NCBI RefSeq assembly: GCF_014529625.1
Contig: NZ_CP076039.1
Coordinates: 2,170,001-2,234,000, forward strand
Source of the DNA: Candidatus Pelagisphaera phototrophica
GTDB taxonomy: Bacteria > Verrucomicrobiota > Verrucomicrobiia > Opitutales > Opitutaceae
Length of the DNA: 64,000 nucleotides
Direction: 5' to 3'
In this document: piece after piece, positions 40,659 to 49,778 of the stretch
Position numbering within the stretch: the first letter of the stretch is position 1
How the letters are laid out: every line of letters begins with the position of its first letter
Notes under the pieces: model-generated
Database searches by the model: none
What the model saw: the letters and a program-made list of their open reading frames with translations, nothing else
Told to the model about the DNA's origin: nothing
Translations under genes and position numbers: made by a program

Positions 40659-41621
40659 TTACGCGAACGAATTAGTAGGCAGTGGAGTTCTATCTAGGAC
40701 AATCTTGAGTGCGTCGTCGGGGGTGATTTCCTCTGCCTCGGCTTCGTAGGTCAATCCAACCCGGTGGCGCATGGCGTCGAGGAACACGTCCTTGATAATC
40801 GACGGAGACACGTGGTCCTGCCCACGTAGCCAAGCAAGGGCACGACCGGCTTGGTACAGACTCAACGACGCTCTCGGGGACGCGCCATAGGAAAGGTATT
40901 TCTGTTCCGGGTTTTCACCCTCTGCCATTCTCCGCGTCGCTCGTACCAGCTTTAGAATATAAGACTGTATCTCCTCCGACACATGGATCTGATCCACTTC
41001 TTCGCGAATCTCCAGCAGTTCCTCACCACTCGACACCGCCTTCAGTTCAGGCTGACGAGTCACTTGCCCCCAGCGTTTCATCATTTCAAACTCTTCCGCC
41101 TGTTCCGGATAGTCGACGATCAGCTTGAAGAGGAATCGGTCTCGTTGCGCTTCGGGCAGCGGGTAGGTACCCTCTTGCTCAACCGGATTCTGAGTGGCCA
41201 TGACAAAGAAGGGCTTGGGAAGGGCCTGCGACTCTCCGCCGATGGTCACTTGCTTTTCCTGCATTGCCTCAAGCAGGGCACTCTGCACTTTAGCGGGGGC
41301 ACGGTTGATCTCGTCCGCTAAAAGCATATTAGCGAAGACAGGGCCACGGTGGGGCACAAACTGTCCGTCCTTTGGCTGGAAGATCATCGTTCCCACCACG
41401 TCGCTTGGCAGGAGATCGGGGGTGAACTGTATGCGCTCAAATTGCATGCCGAGGGCGGTCCCAAGGCTTTTGATGAGAAGTGTCTTGGCCAGTCCTGGCA
41501 TGCCTTCCAACAGGACATGCCCATTTGCAAGCAGAGCGACGAGCATTCGCTCGATCACAATCTCCTGTCCAATCACAGCGGTTCCAACTTCGTTTCTAAT
41601 TCGTTCAGCCCAGTTGCTCAT
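40659..41621 (-). CDS. MoxR-family AAA+ ATPase
   Basis: 320 residues from ATG 41621, where the conserved core begins (MSNWAERIRNEVGTAVIGQE); a longer frame to 41750 reads through a repeat and is not credible. Walker A is LLEGMPGLAKTLLIKSLG, Walker B MLLADEINRAPAKVQSALLE, sensor 1 FFVMATQNPVEQEGTYPLPE, and the lid includes YLSYGASPRASLSLYQAGRA. MoxR ATPases act as chaperones that insert metals or activate VWA-protein complexes. First gene of the operon MoxR-DUF58-BatA-BatB-BatC-BatD; the promoter should lie in 41622-41750. Confidence 0.95.
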   Translation of the reverse strand: MSNWAERIRNEVGTAVIGQEIVIERMLVALLANGHVLLEGMPGLAKTLLIKSLGTALGMQFERIQFTPDLLPSDVVGTMIFQPKDGQFVPHRGPVFANMLLADEINRAPAKVQSALLEAMQEKQVTIGGESQALPKPFFVMATQNPVEQEGTYPLPEAQRDRFLFKLIVDYPEQAEEFEMMKRWGQVTRQPELKAVSSGEELLEIREEVDQIHVSEEIQSYILKLVRATRRMAEGENPEQKYLSYGASPRASLSLYQAGRALAWLRGQDHVSPSIIKDVFLDAMRHRVGLTYEAEAEEITPDDALKIVLDRTPLPTNSFA

Positions 41622-41694: not shown

Positions 41695-41721
41695 GACCAC
41701 GAAATCAAGACATTGTTTCGG
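41695..41721. repeat. 27-bp direct repeat, left copy
   Basis: Begins GACCACGAAATCAAGACATT and ends GTTTCGG. It matches 47679-47705 at 26 of 27 positions, and similarity stops abruptly on both sides. It lies 74 bp upstream of the moxR start codon. Confidence 0.85.
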
Positions 41722-41795
41722 TTGTCCTTATTTTTTAATGATTGCGCCATAAGTTGTTGGTTATTAGTAAAGATAATTAAGCCGTTGAGGAGTTA

Positions 41796-41966
41796 TTGGC
41801 TCTTAATCCTAGTGACTTCAAAGAAGCTAAGAAGGAAAACAAACCAAGATTTAGTCCAAAGTGGGATCGTGATTTCACCCGACGGTTAAAAGACGCATGT
41901 TGGGAACATAACCTTCCCTACGTCTACTACTCCTTTTCTGGAAGCTCTAGGTTTAGAGAAAAGTAA
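41796..41966 (+). CDS. possible small protein, 56 residues
   Basis: TTG 41796 is preceded by GAGGAG at 41787-41792, a strong ribosome-binding site with 3-base spacing. The frame runs 56 codons to TAA 41964-41966 with protein-like composition: NPSDFKEAKKENKPRFSPKW, then DRDFTRRLKDACWEHNLPYV and YYSFSGSS. I do not recognise it. It is charged, lacks a leader or membrane helix and sits just inside the left boundary of the candidate island. It could also be the end of a larger decayed gene, since a TAA closes the frame five codons upstream of the start. Confidence 0.35.
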   Translation: MALNPSDFKEAKKENKPRFSPKWDRDFTRRLKDACWEHNLPYVYYSFSGSSRFREK

Positions 41967-42028
41967 GTCTAACAGAAAGAAGATTGGTAGACATTTGGTT
42001 CATTGTGTTACCAAAAGAGAATACTTAG

Positions 42029-42115
42029 ACTAAGAGTTAATTGGAGTACTAAGAGTATTAGCTTACCAAGAGTATTAGTTTACTAAGAATCTTATCTTAC
42101 TAATTAATCTATATG
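42029..42115. repeat. 17-bp tandem array (iteron-like)
   Basis: Three 17-bp units follow one another without spacer: ACTAAGAGTATTAGCTT (42048-42064), ACCAAGAGTATTAGTTT (42065-42081) and ACTAAGAATCTTATCTT (42082-42098). A degenerate unit lies on each side (from 42029 and to 42115). The array is very AT-rich. Spacing of about 1.5-1.6 helical turns per unit recalls iterons bound by replication, partition or phage regulatory proteins, but no Rep gene is in the window. Confidence 0.7.
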
Positions 42116-42268
42116 TACTGTCGCCAACAGTTTTTAGGTAGTAGAAAATCCAACGAGATTCCTGGAACAAAAGCATATCTCTAGATGACTAATACGCACG
42201 TTATGGGGATAACGGCCAAAGGACACGGTCTTAGATCGATCCTTGGGCAACATAGAAATGAACATATG

Positions 42269-42304
42269 AGAGCGGCCTGTGGGAGGGTCGCTCTTTCTCT
42301 TTGT
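42269..42304 (+). terminator. intrinsic terminator, no gene upstream (1)
   Basis: AGAGCGGCC (42269-42277) pairs with GGTCGCTCT (42286-42294) over 9 bp with one G-U, loop TGTGGGAG, followed by the pyrimidine tail TTCTCTTT. No recognisable coding sequence on the + strand leads into it, so it probably ends a non-coding transcript. Confidence 0.6.
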
Positions 42305-42471
42305 CACTTTGCTCCAAGGGCCAAAATTAACAGATCTTCTACCAATACTGCACAAAAGGTGTTCAACTAATGGGAGTGCTTGATCTCTCGGGAATGAGAT
42401 GGAAAAGTCAGCACACACTTAAGTAAGCTCACTCGGCGTTAACCTGTATAGCGATGTCGAAGGGGCGAATC

Positions 42472-42505
42472 AAAGGAGCAGTTCGGGAGGGCTGCTTCTT
42501 TTTTT
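42472..42505 (+). terminator. intrinsic terminator, no gene upstream (2)
   Basis: AAAGGAGCAG (42472-42481) pairs with CTGCTTCTTT (42492-42501) over 10 bp with one G-U, loop TTCGGGAGGG, followed by more T residues. It shares the GGGAGGG loop and GAGC stem base with the first hairpin. It could also serve weakly as terminator of the convergent lipoprotein gene ending at 42510. Confidence 0.7.
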
Positions 42506-42509
42506 ATTT

Positions 42510-42953
42510 CTACCGACTGAAACTTGCCATCGCTGGTCTGTAAAAAGCGGGCATGTCCAACGACTCGAGAAACGCTTTTAGTTCTGGCGAGGCTGTGCCA
42601 AATATCTCAATTTTTATGATCTCAAAGTGCTCTATAAAATCGCCGAAAAGGGATTCTAGTTTGCCTCCCTCTGAAATATTCTGGCCGTGGATTAAAACGG
42701 CATCCGAACTCTGGTAGCGCTCAATGAGAGTAATCTTACCCTCAGATTCATAAAAACCCCATCCAAGTGACTGGGGCTCATTGTTGTCGATGGCATCTGT
42801 GTAAACCTTGGAGAAGTTTGAAATATCCTCTGAGTTCTTGCCGCTGACGGGCTTTAGTTCCACAACAAAAATGATTTCATCATCGTTGTAGGTCGGTTGT
42901 GACTTTTCTGCACATCCAGAGAAAAGAAATACTAGTAGAACAATAAATCGCAT
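42510..42953 (-). CDS. putative lipoprotein with ABM-like (dimeric alpha-beta barrel) domain
   Basis: 147 residues from ATG 42953, where a lipoprotein signal begins (MRFIVLLVFLFSGCAEKS; lipobox FSGC, lipidated Cys at residue 14). A longer frame to 43049 would bury the leader. The mature part, IIFVVELKPVSGKNSEDISN followed by EGKITLIERYQSSDAVLIHG, has the strand-helix pattern of antibiotic-biosynthesis-monooxygenase-like domains, including the E-R/W-x-x-x-x-A-x-x-x-H run. It is inside the candidate island; function unknown. Confidence 0.65.
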   Translation of the reverse strand: MRFIVLLVFLFSGCAEKSQPTYNDDEIIFVVELKPVSGKNSEDISNFSKVYTDAIDNNEPQSLGWGFYESEGKITLIERYQSSDAVLIHGQNISEGGKLESLFGDFIEHFEIIKIEIFGTASPELKAFLESLDMPAFYRPAMASFSR

Positions 42954-43050
42954 GTTGTTGGATTGCCATACTGTAGAATGAAGGTGAAGCAATTTCCTTA
43001 ATTTTTTCTCATCGGTAGATGGGTTTCCAAGGGCAATCACCGCATTCATG

Positions 43051-43059
43051 TGGTATAAT
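43051..43059 (+). promoter_or_regulatory. extended -10 promoter, nearly leaderless start
   Basis: TGGTATAAT (43051-43059) is a TG-n extended -10 with a perfect TATAAT hexamer. The ATG of the next gene is at 43067, only 8 bases after the box. The transcript would begin at or just before the start codon, leaving no room for a Shine-Dalgarno site. No good -35 box is visible, as is usual for extended -10 promoters. Confidence 0.6.
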
Positions 43060-43066
43060 ATGCAAC

Positions 43067-43588
43067 ATGGTTGAAGCCCCAGATTTGAAGGAAAGCATCG
43101 CTGATGCGGTGCAGGAGTACGCGAGCAAGAAGCGAGAAGAAGGCGTTAAGAGTTTGAGCAGGATGAATCCTGAGAAGGTTGGTTTGATCCTCTATTTGTT
43201 CTCCCTAGGCGTAAGTCAGAGCCAAATGGTAAAGCGACACAAAATCTGCCACAAGACCATCAAGAAAACCTTGATGGAGTACGCTGATCATCTTGGCAAA
43301 TGGACCGAAGTTGGGGCGAGGCTTTCCAAACAACTTTTCCTCAATCTTCATTCATTGGAGGAAGACATCATTGAGGCTGTCAGGGAGCGTATGGAGAGCG
43401 GTAAATTGAAGCCCAACTTCCGCGATGTCTATTACGTCTCCACAGCCAAAGAAAAGAGCTGGCAACAAGCTCACCGCATTGAGGAGCGTAAGAAGGAGAC
43501 AACGTTCACTAGGAATGTTGTTAGCCAAGAAGACTATGAAAAGGTCCTAGCTAAGGCTAGGGAGAGGATGCGGGGTTCTCTGAGTTAA
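43067..43588 (+). CDS. helix-turn-helix protein, possibly phage terminase small subunit-like
   Basis: 173 residues from ATG 43067; a longer frame from 43019 would run through the promoter. Residues ~40-70 (LYLFSLGVSQSQMVKRHKIC, then HKTIKKTLMEYAD) form a helix-turn-helix of the resolvase/terminase-small type. The rest is highly charged and helical (LHSLEEDIIEAVRERMESGK). There is no leader. Position ahead of terminase-large, gpW-like and portal fragments (from 45148) would suit a Nu1-like terminase small subunit, but two unrelated genes now lie between. I do not recognise the family with certainty. Confidence 0.55.
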   Translation: MVEAPDLKESIADAVQEYASKKREEGVKSLSRMNPEKVGLILYLFSLGVSQSQMVKRHKICHKTIKKTLMEYADHLGKWTEVGARLSKQLFLNLHSLEEDIIEAVRERMESGKLKPNFRDVYYVSTAKEKSWQQAHRIEERKKETTFTRNVVSQEDYEKVLAKARERMRGSLS

Positions 43589-43593
43589 GAAGT

Positions 43594-43640
43594 GTAAAGT
43601 ATTCCGACAAGTGTCGGGATATTTTACAGTTTTCTCAATA
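43594..43640 (+). terminator. hairpin terminator after the helix-turn-helix gene
   Basis: A 15-base arm at 43594-43608 (GTAAAGTATTCCGAC) pairs with 43613-43627 at 13 of 15 positions, with a 4-base loop, 5 bp after the stop codon. The tail CAGTTTTCTC is only moderately T-rich. It separates this gene from the VPDTG genes. Confidence 0.55.
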
Positions 43641-43754
43641 TTAATATTTAGTGACGATTATTAATGAAATTTTAAAGTACTGGTAGATAGTTACTAACAG
43701 AAAGTGCATGAAGGCATTGGTCTGTTTGGCACAAAAGTTGCATAAACGATCACT

Positions 43755-44498
43755 ATGAAATTGCCCGAAAACGTAGAGACCGAAACAAGTGACAAAAGTG
43801 GGTTCAATTCACGCGCTTCTAGAATGGCGAGGTATTCAGCCGCCGCTGCAGGAGTGGCTGCGGTAAGCACCTTAGACGTCGATGCAGCATTAGTAAGAAT
43901 GGATCTTGGGTCACCGGTTGGAGCAGGTACGCCGATTAATCTCCATTCTCCTGATTTTAGTACTAATTTGATCTTTTTTCAAGGAGGCTCGTCGTCATAT
44001 GTTGGTCCGGATTACATTAGTGCCAGTGCCTATAGTTTTGATTCTACTACATGGGTGGTTGCTGGTACTTGGTTTGGCCCTAACTCACAAATAGGTACGT
44101 CGATCCAGGGGTCATATGGAGGTGAAGGAGGGTCATATGGAGGTGAAGGAGGGTCATATGGAGGTGAAGGAGGGTATTCGTCGAACTCCGTTGGTTGGGC
44201 TCCTGGAGGGCCCATAGGTCTTAACGGGACCAATGAAACCCTCTACATGGGTTTCTTCCACTTATCCTCATCCTCATCCTCCAACGTCAACTTCGGCTAT
44301 CTGCAGTTTGATTTTGACTCTGCGCAGACTGCGACTGTGCAGCACTGGGGGTATGAGTCGGTCTTCCTTACAGCGGTAACGACGCCGGCCGGATCATCAT
44401 CAGTTCCAGACACTGGTCCAGGCTTTGTTGGCATAGCCCTTCTAGGGGCGGGAGCAGCTGGGGTGCGCTTGTTGAGAAAGCTAAGGTCCAAAAGCTAG
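43755..44498 (+). CDS. VPDTG-CTERM surface-sorted protein with GSYGGEG repeats
   Basis: 247 residues from ATG 43755. The N-terminus contains an unusual leader (SRMARYSAAAAGVAAVSTLD, VDAA) of a kind seen in exported Verrucomicrobiota proteins. The C-terminus has the three-part sorting signal: SSVPDTG, a hydrophobic helix (FVGIALLGAGAAGVRLL) and a basic tail (RKLRSKS), as in PEP-CTERM/VPDSG-CTERM substrates of exosortase. Residues ~119-139 are three copies of the heptad GSYGGEG, encoded by three perfect 21-bp repeats. No exosortase gene is in the window. The domain between is Gly/Ser rich and unrecognised. Confidence 0.75.
   Translation: MKLPENVETETSDKSGFNSRASRMARYSAAAAGVAAVSTLDVDAALVRMDLGSPVGAGTPINLHSPDFSTNLIFFQGGSSSYVGPDYISASAYSFDSTTWVVAGTWFGPNSQIGTSIQGSYGGEGGSYGGEGGSYGGEGGYSSNSVGWAPGGPIGLNGTNETLYMGFFHLSSSSSSNVNFGYLQFDFDSAQTATVQHWGYESVFLTAVTTPAGSSSVPDTGPGFVGIALLGAGAAGVRLLRKLRSKS
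44108..44170. repeat. three perfect 21-bp coding repeats
   Basis: Units 44108-44128, 44129-44149 and 44150-44170 are identical, beginning GGGTCATATGGAGG. They encode the heptad repeat within the VPDTG-sorted protein and keep the reading frame. Perfect identity at third positions indicates a recent expansion. Confidence 0.95.
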
Positions 44499-44567
44499 CC
44501 TAGGACCTGAGTCCGATAAGTATTAGATTTTTTTGATTCAGCCCATCACAAGCTTTATTTGAAAACT

Positions 44568-45146
44568 ATGAAACGTTACGCCAATCTGCTCAAAATCATT
44601 CTTCTTTTGTCACTTCTCCCTGCTTCGGCATCGGCTATAACCATCACTGTTTCTGCTCCAAGTTCCTCGTCGACGACCTTTACAATCACGGGCTCTGGCA
44701 CAGCGTATAATACCGCCACGGGTCAATCCCTCTTCCAATTCGCAGGTTTGGCCGCAGGTTCGGGAAATTTCACTAATGCTGATTTCTTACCGCCATGGTT
44801 TCAAGCAACTGGTACTTTTGCATTCGATGGAGTGGCACTTACCGATGTCCGTATCGTCGATAATGATTACATCGACCAGTATGATATGCTCGGCTTGCAA
44901 TTTGCGAGCGGAATATCCGCTGGTACCATAGCGGCATCAGGTAGTTCTACGGTCGATTTTAGTGGGAGCGGTAAGACTTTCGGCGACCTAGTGATTGGGA
45001 CTTACGATATAAGTGAAATCACTTACTTTAACAATGCTCCTACTCTGATAGTTCAATACAGTTCGGTCCCCGACACAGGGTCCACAGCGGCCCTTCTTGG
45101 AGTTGGTGATGTGGCTCTAGCCTTTGCTAAGCGGAGGCTGGGCTAA
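44568..45146 (+). CDS. VPDTG-CTERM surface-sorted protein
   Basis: 192 residues from ATG 44568; TTG 44559 would add three residues before the signal peptide (LKIILLLSLLPASASA). The mature part is Ser/Thr/Gly rich and likely beta-stranded (TITVSAPSSSSTTFTITGSG). The C-terminus carries SSVPDTGSTAALLGVG, a short hydrophobic helix and the tail AKRRLG. VPDxGSTAALLG is the common form of this signal in Verrucomicrobiota. Sorting presumably requires an exosortase encoded elsewhere. Its 3' end is duplicated at 46801-46876. Confidence 0.75.
   Translation: MKRYANLLKIILLLSLLPASASAITITVSAPSSSSTTFTITGSGTAYNTATGQSLFQFAGLAAGSGNFTNADFLPPWFQATGTFAFDGVALTDVRIVDNDYIDQYDMLGLQFASGISAGTIAASGSSTVDFSGSGKTFGDLVIGTYDISEITYFNNAPTLIVQYSSVPDTGSTAALLGVGDVALAFAKRRLG
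45071..45146 (+). repeat. VPDTG 3'-end direct repeat, copy A
   Basis: The last ~76 bp of the VPDTG gene recur at 46801-46876 with about 83% identity by my count, including exact blocks GACACAGGGTCCACAGC, CTAGCCTTTGCTA and GCGGAGGCTGGG. The two copies bracket the prophage packaging fragment. Confidence 0.8.
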
Positions 45147-45147
45147 G

Positions 45148-45393
45148 GGTTTGACGTGCGAGAACAAAGATATAAAAATTGTTTCCGGCAAACAAGTACT
45201 CTATGGGAACAACGCTTCAGGTGCTAGAAACGAGCCCATAGATTGCCGCAACTACGCACAAGTAGCATTTTTATCTTACCCTGTAAACTTGGAGCACAGA
45301 GCAAACAAGGGGCTACACGGTCTATTTACAGCAGAGCCAGCGCCCAAGCCACAGCGTAAGAAGAGAAAAAGGGGGTCAATAGGTATCTCATGA
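45148..45393 (+). pseudogene. phage terminase large subunit (lambda gpA type), C-terminal fragment
   Basis: The frame entering from the end of the VPDTG gene encodes GNNASGARNEPIDCRNYAQV, then AFLSYPVNLE, and a basic end (PKPQRKKRKRGSIGIS). R-N-E-x-x-D-C-R-x-Y-A is the conserved C-terminal motif of GpA-type terminase large subunits. The ATPase and most of the nuclease domain are missing; the fragment abuts the VPDTG 3' end. Its TGA overlaps the ATG of the QueC-like gene (ATGA), which shows the two genes belonged to one phage operon. Confidence 0.65.
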
Positions 45394-45959
45394 AAGTATT
45401 AATTATGTTCTCGGGCGGGCTGGATAGCACATATATGTTGTGGCACTACCTAACTAAAACTTATTACGCAGTACACACGCACCATGTCAGCATTCAAAAC
45501 CGAGAGCTGAATTTTAAAAAAGAATACGAATCTACTGAAAAAATATACGCCTACTGCAAAAATAATTTCCGAGAGTTCAAAACATCAGAGTCAAAATTCA
45601 TATTCGACTTCCCCTATCCGGGTTGGGACTCGGATATTATTTGTTTAGTAGCGTCCCGGCTATGCCCGAATATAAGAGCTGAAAAAGTTGTTATGGGATG
45701 GGTGAAAGATGATCTGAGCCGTCCCGTGGTTATCGACAGAATGAAAAGAAAAGTCACAAGTAACCTGTGGGAATCATTAGCAAATTCTTGTGACTTCCCA
45801 ATCCCGCCCACTGTGGACTATCCCCTTATAGGCAAAACAAAACAGGAGATTATTAATGAGCTACCGAAAGAGTTGATGGACCTGACATGGTCATGTCGAA
45901 AAGGTGGGCTCCGTCCCTGCGGAAAATGCCACTCCTGCAAAACTAGAGAAGGTCTATAA
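45390..45959 (+). CDS. QueC-like PP-loop enzyme (7-cyano-7-deazaguanine synthase family), phage type
   Basis: 189 residues from ATG 45390. MFSGGLDSTYMLWHY (S8-T14) is the PP-loop that binds ATP. The C-terminal zinc site is C169-x7-C177-x2-C180-x2-C183 (SCRKGGLRPCGKCHSCKTR), as in QueC. It is shorter than E. coli QueC (231 residues). QueC makes preQ0 from 7-carboxy-7-deazaguanine; phages use such enzymes to place 7-deazaguanines in their DNA. The gene overlaps the terminase fragment by 4 bp and is followed by a gpW-like gene. No QueD, QueE, FolE or DNA transglycosylase is present, so it could act only with host or lost phage partners. It looks intact. Confidence 0.8.
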   Translation: MKVLIMFSGGLDSTYMLWHYLTKTYYAVHTHHVSIQNRELNFKKEYESTEKIYAYCKNNFREFKTSESKFIFDFPYPGWDSDIICLVASRLCPNIRAEKVVMGWVKDDLSRPVVIDRMKRKVTSNLWESLANSCDFPIPPTVDYPLIGKTKQEIINELPKELMDLTWSCRKGGLRPCGKCHSCKTREGL

Positions 45960-46230
45960 TATACTTGAAAGTTACTGTCCATTTGCGCTACAAACTAATG
46001 TTGGAATCTATCCGGAATACATAACAGAACTAGAGCAGCGTAAGGTGCTTAACGTTTTGGCAGAGGCAGCAATCCTAAAAGGCCAGTCCTATTCAATAGG
46101 CAGCAGGTCTTTGTCAAGAGCCGATTTACGCGAAGTTAAAAAAGCCATAGACGACCTTAATAAACAATTAGCAGCACTCCGAAGTGGCAACCAAATCACT
46201 CAACATAGAGTAGTACCTCGAGATATTTAA
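45904..46230 (+). CDS. gpW/DUF6148-like phage head-tail joining protein
   Basis: 108 residues from GTG 45904, which would overlap the QueC-like gene by 56 bp; the true start may be later, but no ATG is close. The C-terminal half (EQRKVLNVLAEAAILKGQSY, SIGSRSLSRADLREVKKAID) matches small phage proteins between terminase and portal genes (pattern: GQSYxIGxRxLTRADLxEI). Lambda gpW stabilises packaged heads and links head to tail. Its place, terminase-QueC-this-portal, agrees with that job. The final 20 residues are polar. Confidence 0.55.
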   Translation: MGSVPAENATPAKLEKVYNILESYCPFALQTNVGIYPEYITELEQRKVLNVLAEAAILKGQSYSIGSRSLSRADLREVKKAIDDLNKQLAALRSGNQITQHRVVPRDI

Positions 46231-46233
46231 TTA

Positions 46234-46617
46234 GTGCAAACAAAGTTAAATTGGGTAGATAAAACAGTCCAGTACTTTAACCCCGAGGCGGGTTTAAGGC
46301 GAGCTGGATCTCGGCATTAAAATGCAAGCTGCCAACGAAGACGGTTATATGTAGTACCGGGTTCTCGCAAGAAGTCTATGAAGGGGGTTGCAGCTCGTAA
46401 CAACGGACCCGACATAGATATAATAGTTAAGCTGGATGGCACCCGCGCACTATCCAAAGATCTCTACATGAACTCGCCTTTGGCGGCTTCGATTGTAAAA
46501 CGGCCCTATCAACAACTCTCCCGAATGATGCGGCTCCTCATTGATACCCTCGAAGACCAAAACGCTCAGTATCCAATCGACGAGGACGGAGACGAAATTC
46601 GACCGCGATTGCCGTAA
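46234..46617 (+). pseudogene. phage portal protein (lambda gpB type), truncated N-terminus
   Basis: From GTG 46234 the frame reads LNWVDKTVQYFNPEAGLRRA, a typical start of lambda-type portal proteins (V..YFSP.AGLRR). TAA at codon 29 interrupts it. The same frame then continues with the next conserved block: DGTRALSKDLYMNSPLAASI (R-x-L-S-R-D-L-x-x-N-N-P-x-A). Similarity ends at about 46500 and the frame stops at 46617. So there is one nonsense codon plus loss of the remaining ~80% of the gene. This is the expected gene after gpW in a lambda-like packaging module. Confidence 0.6.
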
Positions 46618-46732
46618 GGCTCTCAAAACAATGGACGTTTCACGCAAAGACCGATCCCGCTTAACGCATGGGCGTCAATCTAATTGAACCTGTCGTAAAC
46701 CAGGCCGCTCTGCGTTTTTGTTAACCTGGGGA

Positions 46733-46876
46733 AATGGTGGATATCCTGGATCCTATCCCTTTGGCGATCCTCAGGGTACGACATCGACATCAGCCGTAAC
46801 AGACACAGGGTCCACAGCAGCTCTTCTTGGAGTGGGTGTATTAGTGCTAGCCTTTGCTAGGCGGAGGCTGGGATAG
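46733..46876 (+). pseudogene. VPDTG-CTERM gene, 3'-terminal remnant (copy B)
   Basis: The + strand encodes NGGYPGSYPFGDPQG, then SAVTDTGSTAALLGVG, VLVLAFARRRLG and a stop at 46874-46876. This is the same sorting tail as the gene ending at 45146. No start codon or signal peptide leads in, and the frame closes upstream at 46685. The 5' part has been lost, apparently replaced by the portal fragment. Confidence 0.75.
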
Positions 46877-46904
46877 GAATAGCTTCAAAAGCCCTTTAAG
46901 GGAA

Positions 46905-46928
46905 AATTTTTTCTGGGGGCAGTTGATG
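46905..46928. repeat. 24-bp direct repeat, left copy
   Basis: AATTTTTTCTGGGGGCAGTT followed by GATG occurs here and, without any change, at 47436-47459. The pair encloses exactly one gene (46972-47403, minus strand). The spacing between copies is 531 bp. Confidence 0.9.
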
Positions 46929-46971
46929 AACGTTCATTAGAGAGTTACGCCTCCCCCTCTACACCCTGTCG

Positions 46972-47403
46972 CTACTGAACCATCGATGCACGTAACGCGT
47001 CAGTATCGTCAAAAGCCGTGAATGCGGCGATCTTACCGTCTCGCATTTTGAACATGTGCAAGCTCTCGGTATCCATCCCTTGAGCCATCATTCTCGCGTG
47101 CACAAACACCACATCGTCAACCTGGTAGGTCTTAATCGTCTCAATTACCAGATCTGGCCAGTGCTGTGGAAACAAGCCCATCACTTCGTCGATGACCGCT
47201 TGCGTCCCGACACGCTGCCCGGAGTGTGGCAGGTCGCCAAGAATCGTCCAGACGAAATCGTCCGTGTGGAGTATCGCCCACCCCTCAGCATTCCCTGCTA
47301 AAAAGTTGGCATAAGACTGCTCAACTACCTCTAGATCGCTCTCCGAATAGGCTTGGACGCTGAAAATCAATGAGCAAATTGAAAATTGTAGAAATGCACG
47401 CAT
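46972..47403 (-). CDS. secreted SnoaL/DUF4440-like (NTF2 fold) protein
   Basis: 143 residues from ATG 47403. Signal peptide ~1-18 (FLQFSICSLIFSVQAYS). The mature protein has the NTF2-like pattern: VEQSYANFLAGNAEGWAILH, TDDFVWTILGDLPHSGQRVG, VFVHARMMAQG and LHMFKMRDGKIAAFTAFDDT. SnoaL-like folds are cyclases, isomerases or ligand binders; the substrate is unknown and the leader suggests a periplasmic product. It is alone between two exact 24-bp repeats, at the right end of the candidate island. Confidence 0.8.
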   Translation of the reverse strand: MRAFLQFSICSLIFSVQAYSESDLEVVEQSYANFLAGNAEGWAILHTDDFVWTILGDLPHSGQRVGTQAVIDEVMGLFPQHWPDLVIETIKTYQVDDVVFVHARMMAQGMDTESLHMFKMRDGKIAAFTAFDDTDALRASMVQ

Positions 47404-47435
47404 AGGATTGGCTAAGTTGGCGTCCCATGGGTGTC

Positions 47436-47459
47436 AATTTTTTCTGGGGGCAGTTGATG
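47436..47459. repeat. 24-bp direct repeat, right copy
   Basis: Identical to 46905-46928. It lies 32 bp upstream of the SnoaL-like start codon, so it may overlap that gene's promoter. Confidence 0.9.
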
Positions 47460-47678
47460 CATATAAATTGCGATGCTCGCCGCCCCCGCGACCCCCGCCC
47501 CGCTGTTGTCCACTTGCGGTAGGAGAGGCGGCTAAAAAACCCGTGCGAAAAGATGCGGGTGAATAGTTTTTAGGGCAGTGTAAGGGCAGTAGAGATTTAA
47601 GAAGAGTGAATATTAGTCCAATAAAATCCCATAAATATTTGGCCTGTAGGTATATATGAATAAAATACCGAATATAAA

Positions 47679-47705
47679 GACCATGAAATCAAGACATTGT
47701 TTCGG
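47679..47705. repeat. 27-bp direct repeat, right copy
   Basis: Begins GACCATGAAATCAAGACATT; one base differs from the left copy at 41695-41721. It lies 136 bp beyond the dxs stop codon. Confidence 0.85.
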
Positions 47706-47840: not shown

Positions 47841-49778
47841 CTAGACGGCAACAGACGGCGTCTCGAGTTTTTTGCGAATGCCGGATATCATATCGTCAAA
47901 TGAGAGTCCCCCGGTTGCTCTCAAGGTCGCAATATCGGACCCGTGGTCTACGAACTCGTCCGGCCATCCGATTCTATGAACAGGAGTTGACATTTCGCGC
48001 TCGGATAATGTTTCCAGAACGGCGCTGCCAAAACCGCCCGACAAGACTCCGTCTTCGAGGGTAACGATAAGACGATTATCTTTTGCGTGGGAAAGGAGCA
48101 GCTCATTATCTAGCGGCTTGATGAACCGAGCGTTTACAACTCCTGCGGAGAGTCCGTCCTCCAGCTTGAGACGATCACTGATTTCCAAAGCGTCCCGAAC
48201 CATGGGACCAAGGGCCCAGAGAACCAGATCGTCTCCTTCCCGCAAGACTTGTGCTTGTCCCACACCCAAAGCCTTTGGTTTAGACTTAATTTTCACTCCG
48301 GTTCCAGCGCCGCGAGGATACCGAACAAAAACAGGTCGCTTCAGCTGGATGGCCGTGTGCATCATATCTACCAGCTCATCCTCGTCTTTTGGCTGCATAG
48401 CGACGGCATTGGGAACACAGCGCACATACGCTACATCGAAAAGACCGTGGTGGGTTGGGCCGTCGTTGGGGGAAAGTCCCGCACGGTCCATGCAAAAGAC
48501 TACCGGTAGATTTTGCAGGCAAACATCGTGAATGACCTGGTCGAACGCGCGCTGGAGGAACGTCGAGTAGATCGCGACCACCGGCTTGATGCCCTTCGTA
48601 GCGAGCCCCGCTGCAAAAAGTACCGCGTGCTCCTCCGCAATCCCTACATCGTAAAACTGGTCGGGAAGCTCATTGGAAAGATGGATCAAACCGGTACCGG
48701 AAGGCATGGCACCGGTGATCCCGACAATGGATTTGTCCTTTTTGGCGAAGCGCACGATCGAATGGCCAAAGACGTCCTGGTAGTTTGGAGGGACGACTGA
48801 TTGAGATGACTTTGATTTGCCTGAATCAATCTCAAAGGGGCTTGTCCCGTGGAAGCTCTCGGGTTTTTCGATCGCAGGGCGATAGCCTTTTCCCTTTTTG
48901 GTGACTACATGAAGAATCACGGGCTCATTTGCCTCTCTGGCAAATTCAAGATTGCGAGTCAGCAGGGGAAGGTCATGCCCGTCGATGGGTCCGAAGTAGC
49001 GGACACCGTAAGTCTCAAAAATGGAAGAGGGCATCATGATGCTCTTCCAGCCTTTCTCTGCATTTTTCCCTATCTTGAGCAACTGCTCTCCACCGGGCAC
49101 CTTTTGTAAAAAAGTGCCGAAATCGTGATGAAGGCGGTTGTAGATTGGATTAGTGATCAGTTCGTTGAGGTATTTCGATATAGCTCCAACGTTTTTGGCA
49201 ATCGACCATTCGTTGTCGTTGAGAATGATGATAAGACGTTTGGTCGCTGAAGCTACATTGTTGAGGGCCTCCATCGTTATGCCGCAAGTGAAGGCGGCAT
49301 CGCCGCATAACGCTACGACATGCTCATCGGAGCCCAGCTGGTCACGGGCGGCAGCCATGCCCAGCGCGGCAGAAAGGGCTGTTCCGGCATGTCCGGCTCC
49401 GAATGAGTCGTGTGGACTTTCAGACCTAGCGAGGAATCCGCTTATGCCACTGTTCTTGCGAATCTTGTCGAATTCTTTGCCGTTTCTTCCTGTTAGGAGC
49501 TTGTGGACATATCCTTGGTGTGAGGTGTCGAACACGAATTGATCCTTGGGGGTGTTAAAGACGAGGTGCATGGCGATAGTCAGCTCGACCACCCCCAAGT
49601 TCGGTCCCAAGTGACCGCCATTGATCGAAGTGACATCAATCAGCTTAGCTCGGATTTCAGCGGCAAGATCCGTTAGCTCATCCGAGCTTAATGATCGGAT
49701 GTCGGCAGGCTTCTCGATGGCGTTGAGCAAGGGAAATGGGTCGTTCCCGTTCGCTTCGGACTGTTGGCTTGTGTTCAA
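47841..49778 (-). CDS. dxs: 1-deoxy-D-xylulose-5-phosphate synthase
   Basis: 645 residues from TTG 49778. The thiamine-diphosphate site reads VALCGDAAFTCGITMEALNN, then IIILNDNEWSIAKNVGAIS (G-D-G/A ... N-D-N-E). FDTSHQGYVHKLLTGR and DGHDLPLLTRNLEFA are DXS hallmarks, and the C-terminal transketolase-like half carries DVGIAEEHAVLFAAGLATKG and CMDRAGLSPNDGPTHHGLFD. The N-terminal NGGHLGPNLGVVELTIAMHL departs from the usual S-G-H-x-x-x-x-L-G. It condenses pyruvate and glyceraldehyde-3-phosphate, the first step of non-mevalonate isoprenoid synthesis. xseB lies upstream on the same strand. Confidence 0.95.
   Translation of the reverse strand: MNTSQQSEANGNDPFPLLNAIEKPADIRSLSSDELTDLAAEIRAKLIDVTSINGGHLGPNLGVVELTIAMHLVFNTPKDQFVFDTSHQGYVHKLLTGRNGKEFDKIRKNSGISGFLARSESPHDSFGAGHAGTALSAALGMAAARDQLGSDEHVVALCGDAAFTCGITMEALNNVASATKRLIIILNDNEWSIAKNVGAISKYLNELITNPIYNRLHHDFGTFLQKVPGGEQLLKIGKNAEKGWKSIMMPSSIFETYGVRYFGPIDGHDLPLLTRNLEFAREANEPVILHVVTKKGKGYRPAIEKPESFHGTSPFEIDSGKSKSSQSVVPPNYQDVFGHSIVRFAKKDKSIVGITGAMPSGTGLIHLSNELPDQFYDVGIAEEHAVLFAAGLATKGIKPVVAIYSTFLQRAFDQVIHDVCLQNLPVVFCMDRAGLSPNDGPTHHGLFDVAYVRCVPNAVAMQPKDEDELVDMMHTAIQLKRPVFVRYPRGAGTGVKIKSKPKALGVGQAQVLREGDDLVLWALGPMVRDALEISDRLKLEDGLSAGVVNARFIKPLDNELLLSHAKDNRLIVTLEDGVLSGGFGSAVLETLSEREMSTPVHRIGWPDEFVDHGSDIATLRATGGLSFDDMISGIRKKLETPSVAV

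Follow-up and report, generated by a model that had tools for sequence, protein, structure and literature searches.

SaPI/PICI satellites carry an integrase and a TerS-like gene without the other packaging genes. In the available part of PMC10803314, the PICMI satellites of Vibrionaceae are small marine islands with few phage genes at a fixed site beside fis, and tycheposons and similar marine cargo islands, according to the available part of PMC10872708, combine a tyrosine recombinase at one end with exchangeable metabolic cargo and aquatic hosts. The subject of the present analysis is a 6-kb block of accessory DNA located between dxs and moxR of Candidatus Pelagisphaera phototrophica, within a stretch of 64,000 nucleotides (contig NZ_CP076039.1, positions 2,170,001 to 2,234,000; hereafter the window). 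The block is very probably a decayed integrative element, which was inserted site-specifically by a tyrosine recombinase at a 27-bp attachment site (attB) between the two genes and whose integrase was deleted later. Its ends and flanks are positioned in the window as follows.

40659..41621, minus strand: moxR, flanking host gene (PF07726, E 1e-64)
41695..41721, plus strand: attL, the 27-bp direct repeat on the moxR side (single copy at the G003 empty site)
41723..41763, plus strand: left-end remnant of the element (41 bp, 80% identity to the G001 left end, E 9e-8, pairwise search)
47436..47510, plus strand: right-end box common to the element family, starting with the second copy of a 24-mer (family comparison)
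47572..47589, plus strand: right-end pair of AGGGCAGT motifs, proposed as arm sites for the integrase (motif comparison)
47679..47705, plus strand: attR, the 27-bp direct repeat on the dxs side (genome scan)
47841..49778, minus strand: dxs, flanking host gene (TIGR00204, E 4e-226)

The repeats at 41695-41721 and 47679-47705, first pointed out in an earlier note made from the sequence, are indeed identical at 26 of 27 positions and are spaced by 5,984 bp. The genome-wide search suggested there was run on the 4.09-Mb single contig with up to 3 mismatches; it finds two copies only, namely the island ends, and the reversed control pattern gives none, so that the 27-mer is not scattered. The left flank is a moxR-type operon (AAA_3/MoxR, DUF58 and two VWA proteins) and the right flank is dxs, all on the minus strand, which agrees with the common orientation described before.

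In G003, the closest genome compared at this locus (100% identity in MoxR, 98.6% in Dxs), dxs stands next to moxR with a single 27-mer. When the window flanks are joined through one 27-mer, a single alignment to G003 spans 6,896 bp at 97.65% identity with one gap opening. The island thus has a direct repeat at each end and a single copy at the empty site. Six of the 11 genus genomes have the site empty (G002, G003, G004, G005, G008, G010) and three have it occupied: the genome of the window (G000), Opitutaceae bacterium isolate EAC85 (G001) and Opitutales bacterium UBA5694 (G006). In the other two (G007, G009) a search that allowed up to 3 mismatches did not find the motif of the site. The site is also empty in G022 and G079 of another genus, so that the arrangement proposed as a check, dxs next to moxR with one 27-mer, is present in 8 relatives and supports the suggestion of an integrated element with attL/attR-like ends. 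A 32-base motif of this site occurs in 8 of 150 genomes of the family sample, all within these two genera. The presence of the 27-mer at the empty sites of two genera indicates that it is native upstream of moxR and that insertion leaves a full copy at moxR.

The 27-mer, along with a few preceding bases, is kept upstream of moxR in nine genus genomes and in two of another genus. As this conservation extends to sites without an insertion, the 27-mer may have a regulatory role in the host.

In G001, moxR is followed by the 27-mer and then by an intact 433-aa tyrosine recombinase without stops (PHROG 1, E 1e-16; Pfam Phage_integrase under cut-off only); the contig ends shortly past this gene, so the right end is not seen. 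The G006 flanks are 93-94% identical to those of the window, and the insert is about 12.3 kb long (12.5 kb from dxs to moxR). Its parts are the left end, a piece of the integrase (codons 1-81, split over two frames), the cargo and, directly before dxs, the right-end box; the box region is 69% identical to that of the window over 197 bp, and about 160 bp including attR is missing. Pfam matches were obtained for six of seven cargo proteins scanned: ABC transporter ATPase, permease, binding protein, fumarase C, GDPD and sulfatase. Apart from the ends, this insert has just two stray pieces of 10-12 residues in common with the window island.

The empty site and the integrase of the siblings at the same site show that the window block is a site-specific insertion, with the integrase missing in the window and present in siblings. 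The statement that the element has no recognisable recombinase therefore holds for the window copy and fails for the site, where a tyrosine recombinase is intact in G001 and decayed in G006. It is extremely improbable that the repeats arose by chance or as the target duplication of a DDE transposon, with the gene block being ordinary strain variation: in its favour, no recombinase was found in the island, but the 27-mer is native at the empty site in two genera and G001 has a tyrosine recombinase immediately within this site. What looked like an odd repeat pair is thus a defined insertion hot spot between dxs and moxR, which among close relatives is found empty, occupied with an integrase, or occupied in decayed form.

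The sequence of the ends suggests how the window copy reached its present state. The sole mismatch between attL and attR is position 6, which is C in attL and in the G003 empty site and T in attR; this fits a crossover to the right of position 6. The integrase would have joined the element attP to the 27-mer attB by exchange to the right of this position, leaving a full 27-mer on each side, attL at moxR and attR at dxs. Past 41723..41763 the window diverges from G001, and both the left motif pair and the integrase are missing. The integrase was not found in the window by tblastn with the G001 protein as a query (E 0.01), nor among the ten open reading frames (ORFs) of the island by Pfam and PHROG scans. 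A later deletion would have removed the integrase along with the adjacent left-end motif pair. At the right end, the box (about 66 bp), the paired motif and attR follow one another; this end is retained, with the AGGGCAGT pair as the proposed arm-binding sites of the integrase. The G001-type integrase is the probable agent of the insertion.

Most likely, the window copy is a grounded relic. Having lost the integrase and the left motif pair, it is probably fixed in place, and mobilisation in trans, as the earlier note had envisaged, becomes less likely; of the two states proposed there, a relic fits better than an active satellite. A still mobile island, either a non-autonomous element or a phage satellite that depends on a recombinase or helper phage encoded elsewhere, would agree with the nearly intact state of both 27-mers, with the single clean site of G003 (as before insertion or after precise excision) and with the presence of a TerS-like gene while no homologue of the Phage C75C1 large terminase (TerL) was found among the loci searched. 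We consider this improbable, given that the left motif pair is missing in the window, one VPDSG gene and the portal gene of the island are truncated, and no portal over cut-off was found in G000. For the TerL family, G000 gives a single weak match, which covers about 130 profile positions within a frame of 612 aa, and 5 relatives give similarly weak ones. Moreover, the only full-length G000 match to the G001 integrase belongs to a 4.2-kb element at a tRNA-Arg gene, which has both ends and a 27-bp repeat (integrase at L076 11592-12902, at about 3.36 Mb in G000). This protein has Ser and Gly at the AGxR and DIxR positions, where three aligned relatives have the two arginines which we take to be catalytic.

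The decayed element can be compared with tycheposons. The tyrosine recombinase at one end, the exchangeable metabolic cargo and the aquatic hosts are alike (PMC10872708, available part), the variable metabolic cargo at dxs-moxR being provided by G006. In contrast to the tRNA site of tycheposons, the attachment site here is a conserved intergenic sequence, and there is no tRNA in the window; neither a right-end box nor a VPDSG-CTERM gene is mentioned in the available part of PMC10872708. PICMI resembles the island in being small and marine, in having few phage genes and in its fixed site next to a protein gene; helper dependence of the window island is conjectural, and this copy lacks an integrase. 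Candidate mimicry of a tRNA by the 27-mer is not claimed: among 12 tRNAs compared, Ser scores highest (P 0.094) while P is 0.156 for Arg(acg), and the 27-bp tRNA-Arg attachment core taken alone gives P 0.024, uncorrected.

The end sequences of the element are common to other loci. Related right-end boxes occur at ten places in G000 (the window and 277, 546, 687, 2367, 2723, 3119, 3241, 3361 and 3835 kb) and in other genus genomes. A search of 120 genomes of the family sample found boxes in 7, of which the 4 outside the genus gave only 27-36 bp pieces (E 1e-4 or worse); the box therefore looks genus-bound in this sample. Besides the dxs-moxR site, some family boxes adjoin tRNA-Arg, tRNA-Leu or tRNA-Val. 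Of 19 boxes, 16 have a TTTTAG-type motif 121-141 bp beyond the start of the box; it is frequently doubled and sometimes degenerate, and several boxes needed loosened patterns. In two more boxes, both adjoining tRNA-Leu, the motif lies at 162 bp, and it is not seen in L096. The AGGGCAGT class belongs to the dxs-moxR site and to the tRNA-Arg element: the pair precedes the integrase in G001, in the G006 remnant and in the tRNA-Arg element, and it is found near the right end in the window and in the tRNA-Arg element, being degenerate in G006. The AGTGTCG class stands beside tRNA-Leu (G000, G006), the AGTGGAGTA class beside tRNA-Val (G000, G001) and also in three boxes without an adjoining tRNA (L100, L103, L165), and the AGTGGCAGC class in the remaining boxes, for example at 546, 2367, 2723 and 3241 kb, with no tRNA beside the box. 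A strict pairing of class and target was not borne out, as AGTGGAGTA occurs both with and without a tRNA; the class and the target are related, not one to one.

A direct repeat is located 243-256 bp past the box in 4 of the 17 boxes tested (14 and 3 more, with the nine G000 boxes among the 14 re-run on longer context). The distances are 243 bp in the window, 248 bp in the tRNA-Arg element (27 bp), 246 bp in the 2367-kb copy (13 bp) and 256 bp in L107 (18 bp, one mismatch). The two cases with 27-bp repeats, the window and the tRNA-Arg element, are strong.

L107 (G002 contig 30, minus strand) was also noted for its size: the 748 bp before the right attachment site have 18-bp near-repeat ends and contain a VPDTG frame and the box, and no integrase. 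This stretch is a possible miniature element, its repeat being near chance level.

Several observations weigh against the proposed history. The attachment pair is found at the expected distance in only 4 of the 17 boxes, with short upstream DNA for several of them; the 3119-kb box has an imperfect repeat of 37 bp at 139 bp and the 546-kb box one of 14 bp at 373 bp, and the remaining boxes tested have no direct repeat. The shorter pairs, of 13 and 18 bp, are close to chance level: of 1,500 trials with random anchors (drawn from the fetched stretches, rightward extension only), 4.5% reached score 13 and 1.8% reached score 15. The lost integrase would be tied to the G001 type by the common attachment site, the 41-bp left end and the right-end motif. 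Finally, no excision was observed, and the mobility history as read from the sequence is presumptive.

The content of the island bears on where the element came from. Its features are listed below.

42268..42505, plus strand: conserved non-coding unit with a terminal terminator-like hairpin, candidate small RNA (8-row alignment, 82% mean column identity)
42510..43049, minus strand: lipoprotein-like ORF (by eye), 179 aa, without family match in Pfam, PHROG and TIGR scans
43067..43588, plus strand: TerS-like protein, 173 aa (relative in Phage C75C1, 43% identity over 95%)
43755..44498, plus strand: predicted protein with a terminal VPDTG motif and a 3 x 21-bp repeat at 44109-44175 (motif scan; no Pfam match)
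44559..45146, plus strand: VPDSG-CTERM protein, 195 aa (PF18205 and TIGR03778 above cut-off)
45390..45959, plus strand: QueC-like protein, phage type (PHROG 1550, E 7e-28; PF06508, E 1e-13)
45904..46230, plus strand: phage head-tail adaptor, gpW-like (PHROG 118, E 4e-14)
46378..46617, plus strand: possible portal protein fragment, N-terminal and of lambda type (weak PF05136, E 0.005, under cut-off)
46718..46876, plus strand: truncated VPDSG-CTERM gene (PF18205 above cut-off)
46905..46928, plus strand: first of the two copies of the 24-mer with which the right-end box starts (repeat comparison)
46972..47403, minus strand: SnoaL-like protein between the two 24-mer copies (PF12680, E 4e-11)

The 3 x 21-bp tandem repeat in the island is real. 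The phage-type genes are limited to the adaptor, the weak portal fragment, the QueC-like gene and the TerS-like gene; a full prophage set (terminase, portal, capsid, tail) was not found in the island, which is not a complete prophage of the kind of the temperate Akkermansia phages. An origin as a remnant of an ordinary prophage using this attachment site, compatible as it is with a decayed integrative element, appears rather unlikely. The QueC-like gene, the adaptor and the portal fragment are consecutive, and the only relatives of the G001 integrase in the phage collection are three Akkermansia phages (Chantilly, Chambord and Moulinsart; 23.5-27% identity over 90-94%). Against this, the seven ORFs scanned in the G006 element of this site comprise six with transport or metabolic functions and one without a match, the two non-integrase proteins scanned in the tRNA-Arg element have no Pfam or PHROG match, and the phage genes of the window could be later passengers.

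The 173-aa protein has no direct match to a TerS family in Pfam or PHROG. It is called TerS-like because of the gene position of its C75C1 relative, which is the first gene of a long series on the plus strand and lies two genes ahead of the large terminase. Among the loci searched, neither the TerL of C75C1 nor its major head protein has a homologue. Homologues of the TerS-like protein are present in 5 of 11 genus genomes and at nine places in G000, seven of them partial only. The AlphaFold2 model from the single sequence is poor (pLDDT 52). In the viral contigs there are two relatives of the head-tail adaptor and none of the G001-type integrase or the TerS-like protein. The family would resemble SaPI/PICI in an integrase and a TerS-like gene without the remaining packaging genes, the TerS reading being drawn here from one phage relative and its gene order. 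Satellite regulators and capsid-size genes were not recognised in the island, in which no specific search for them was made.

In 8 of 16 loci with a box, including 6 of 9 in G000, the stop of a VPDSG-type frame lies no more than 40 bp from the box or, in the case of the window, from the first 24-mer; three further boxes have no such frame by eye, giving 8 of 19 overall. G000 has 30 VPDSG-CTERM matches over cut-off and one exosortase match (353347-354132), so the VPDSG-CTERM proteins could be sorted by the host. It is possible, as we suggest tentatively, that an undescribed family of integrative elements, perhaps TerS-bearing phage satellites, spreads nutrient genes within marine Opitutales together with surface proteins of the VPDSG-CTERM type, which would be sorted by exosortase. 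Its hallmark would be the conserved box, a paired motif of few classes and a fixed distance to the attachment site; one branch would target the conserved dxs-moxR intergenic sequence instead of a tRNA gene. Such a signature could be used to find mobile elements in this little-studied marine group, and it suggests a link between the expansion of surface-protein genes in marine Opitutales and mobile DNA. No account of this family was found in the open-access searches made, which is weak evidence of novelty; in the available part of PMC5991714, dxs serves as a quantitative PCR reference gene only.

The unit at 42268-42505 closes with a hairpin followed by a T run. Seven further copies are present among the fetched loci (two in L025), and the unit has no Rfam match at the gathering threshold, as is the case for all Rfam families in the window. 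A structured RNA is weakly backed here (fold z -0.8; both-sided changes in 5 of 50 pairs) and remains a lead. For integron-like cassettes, no attC pattern was seen by eye when the 24-mer was compared with the attC consensus, no integron tool being used. The 24-mer is duplicated around the SnoaL gene (46905-47459), and at other places a different sequence comes after it. The second 24-mer copy with the SnoaL gene is a nested change within the island.

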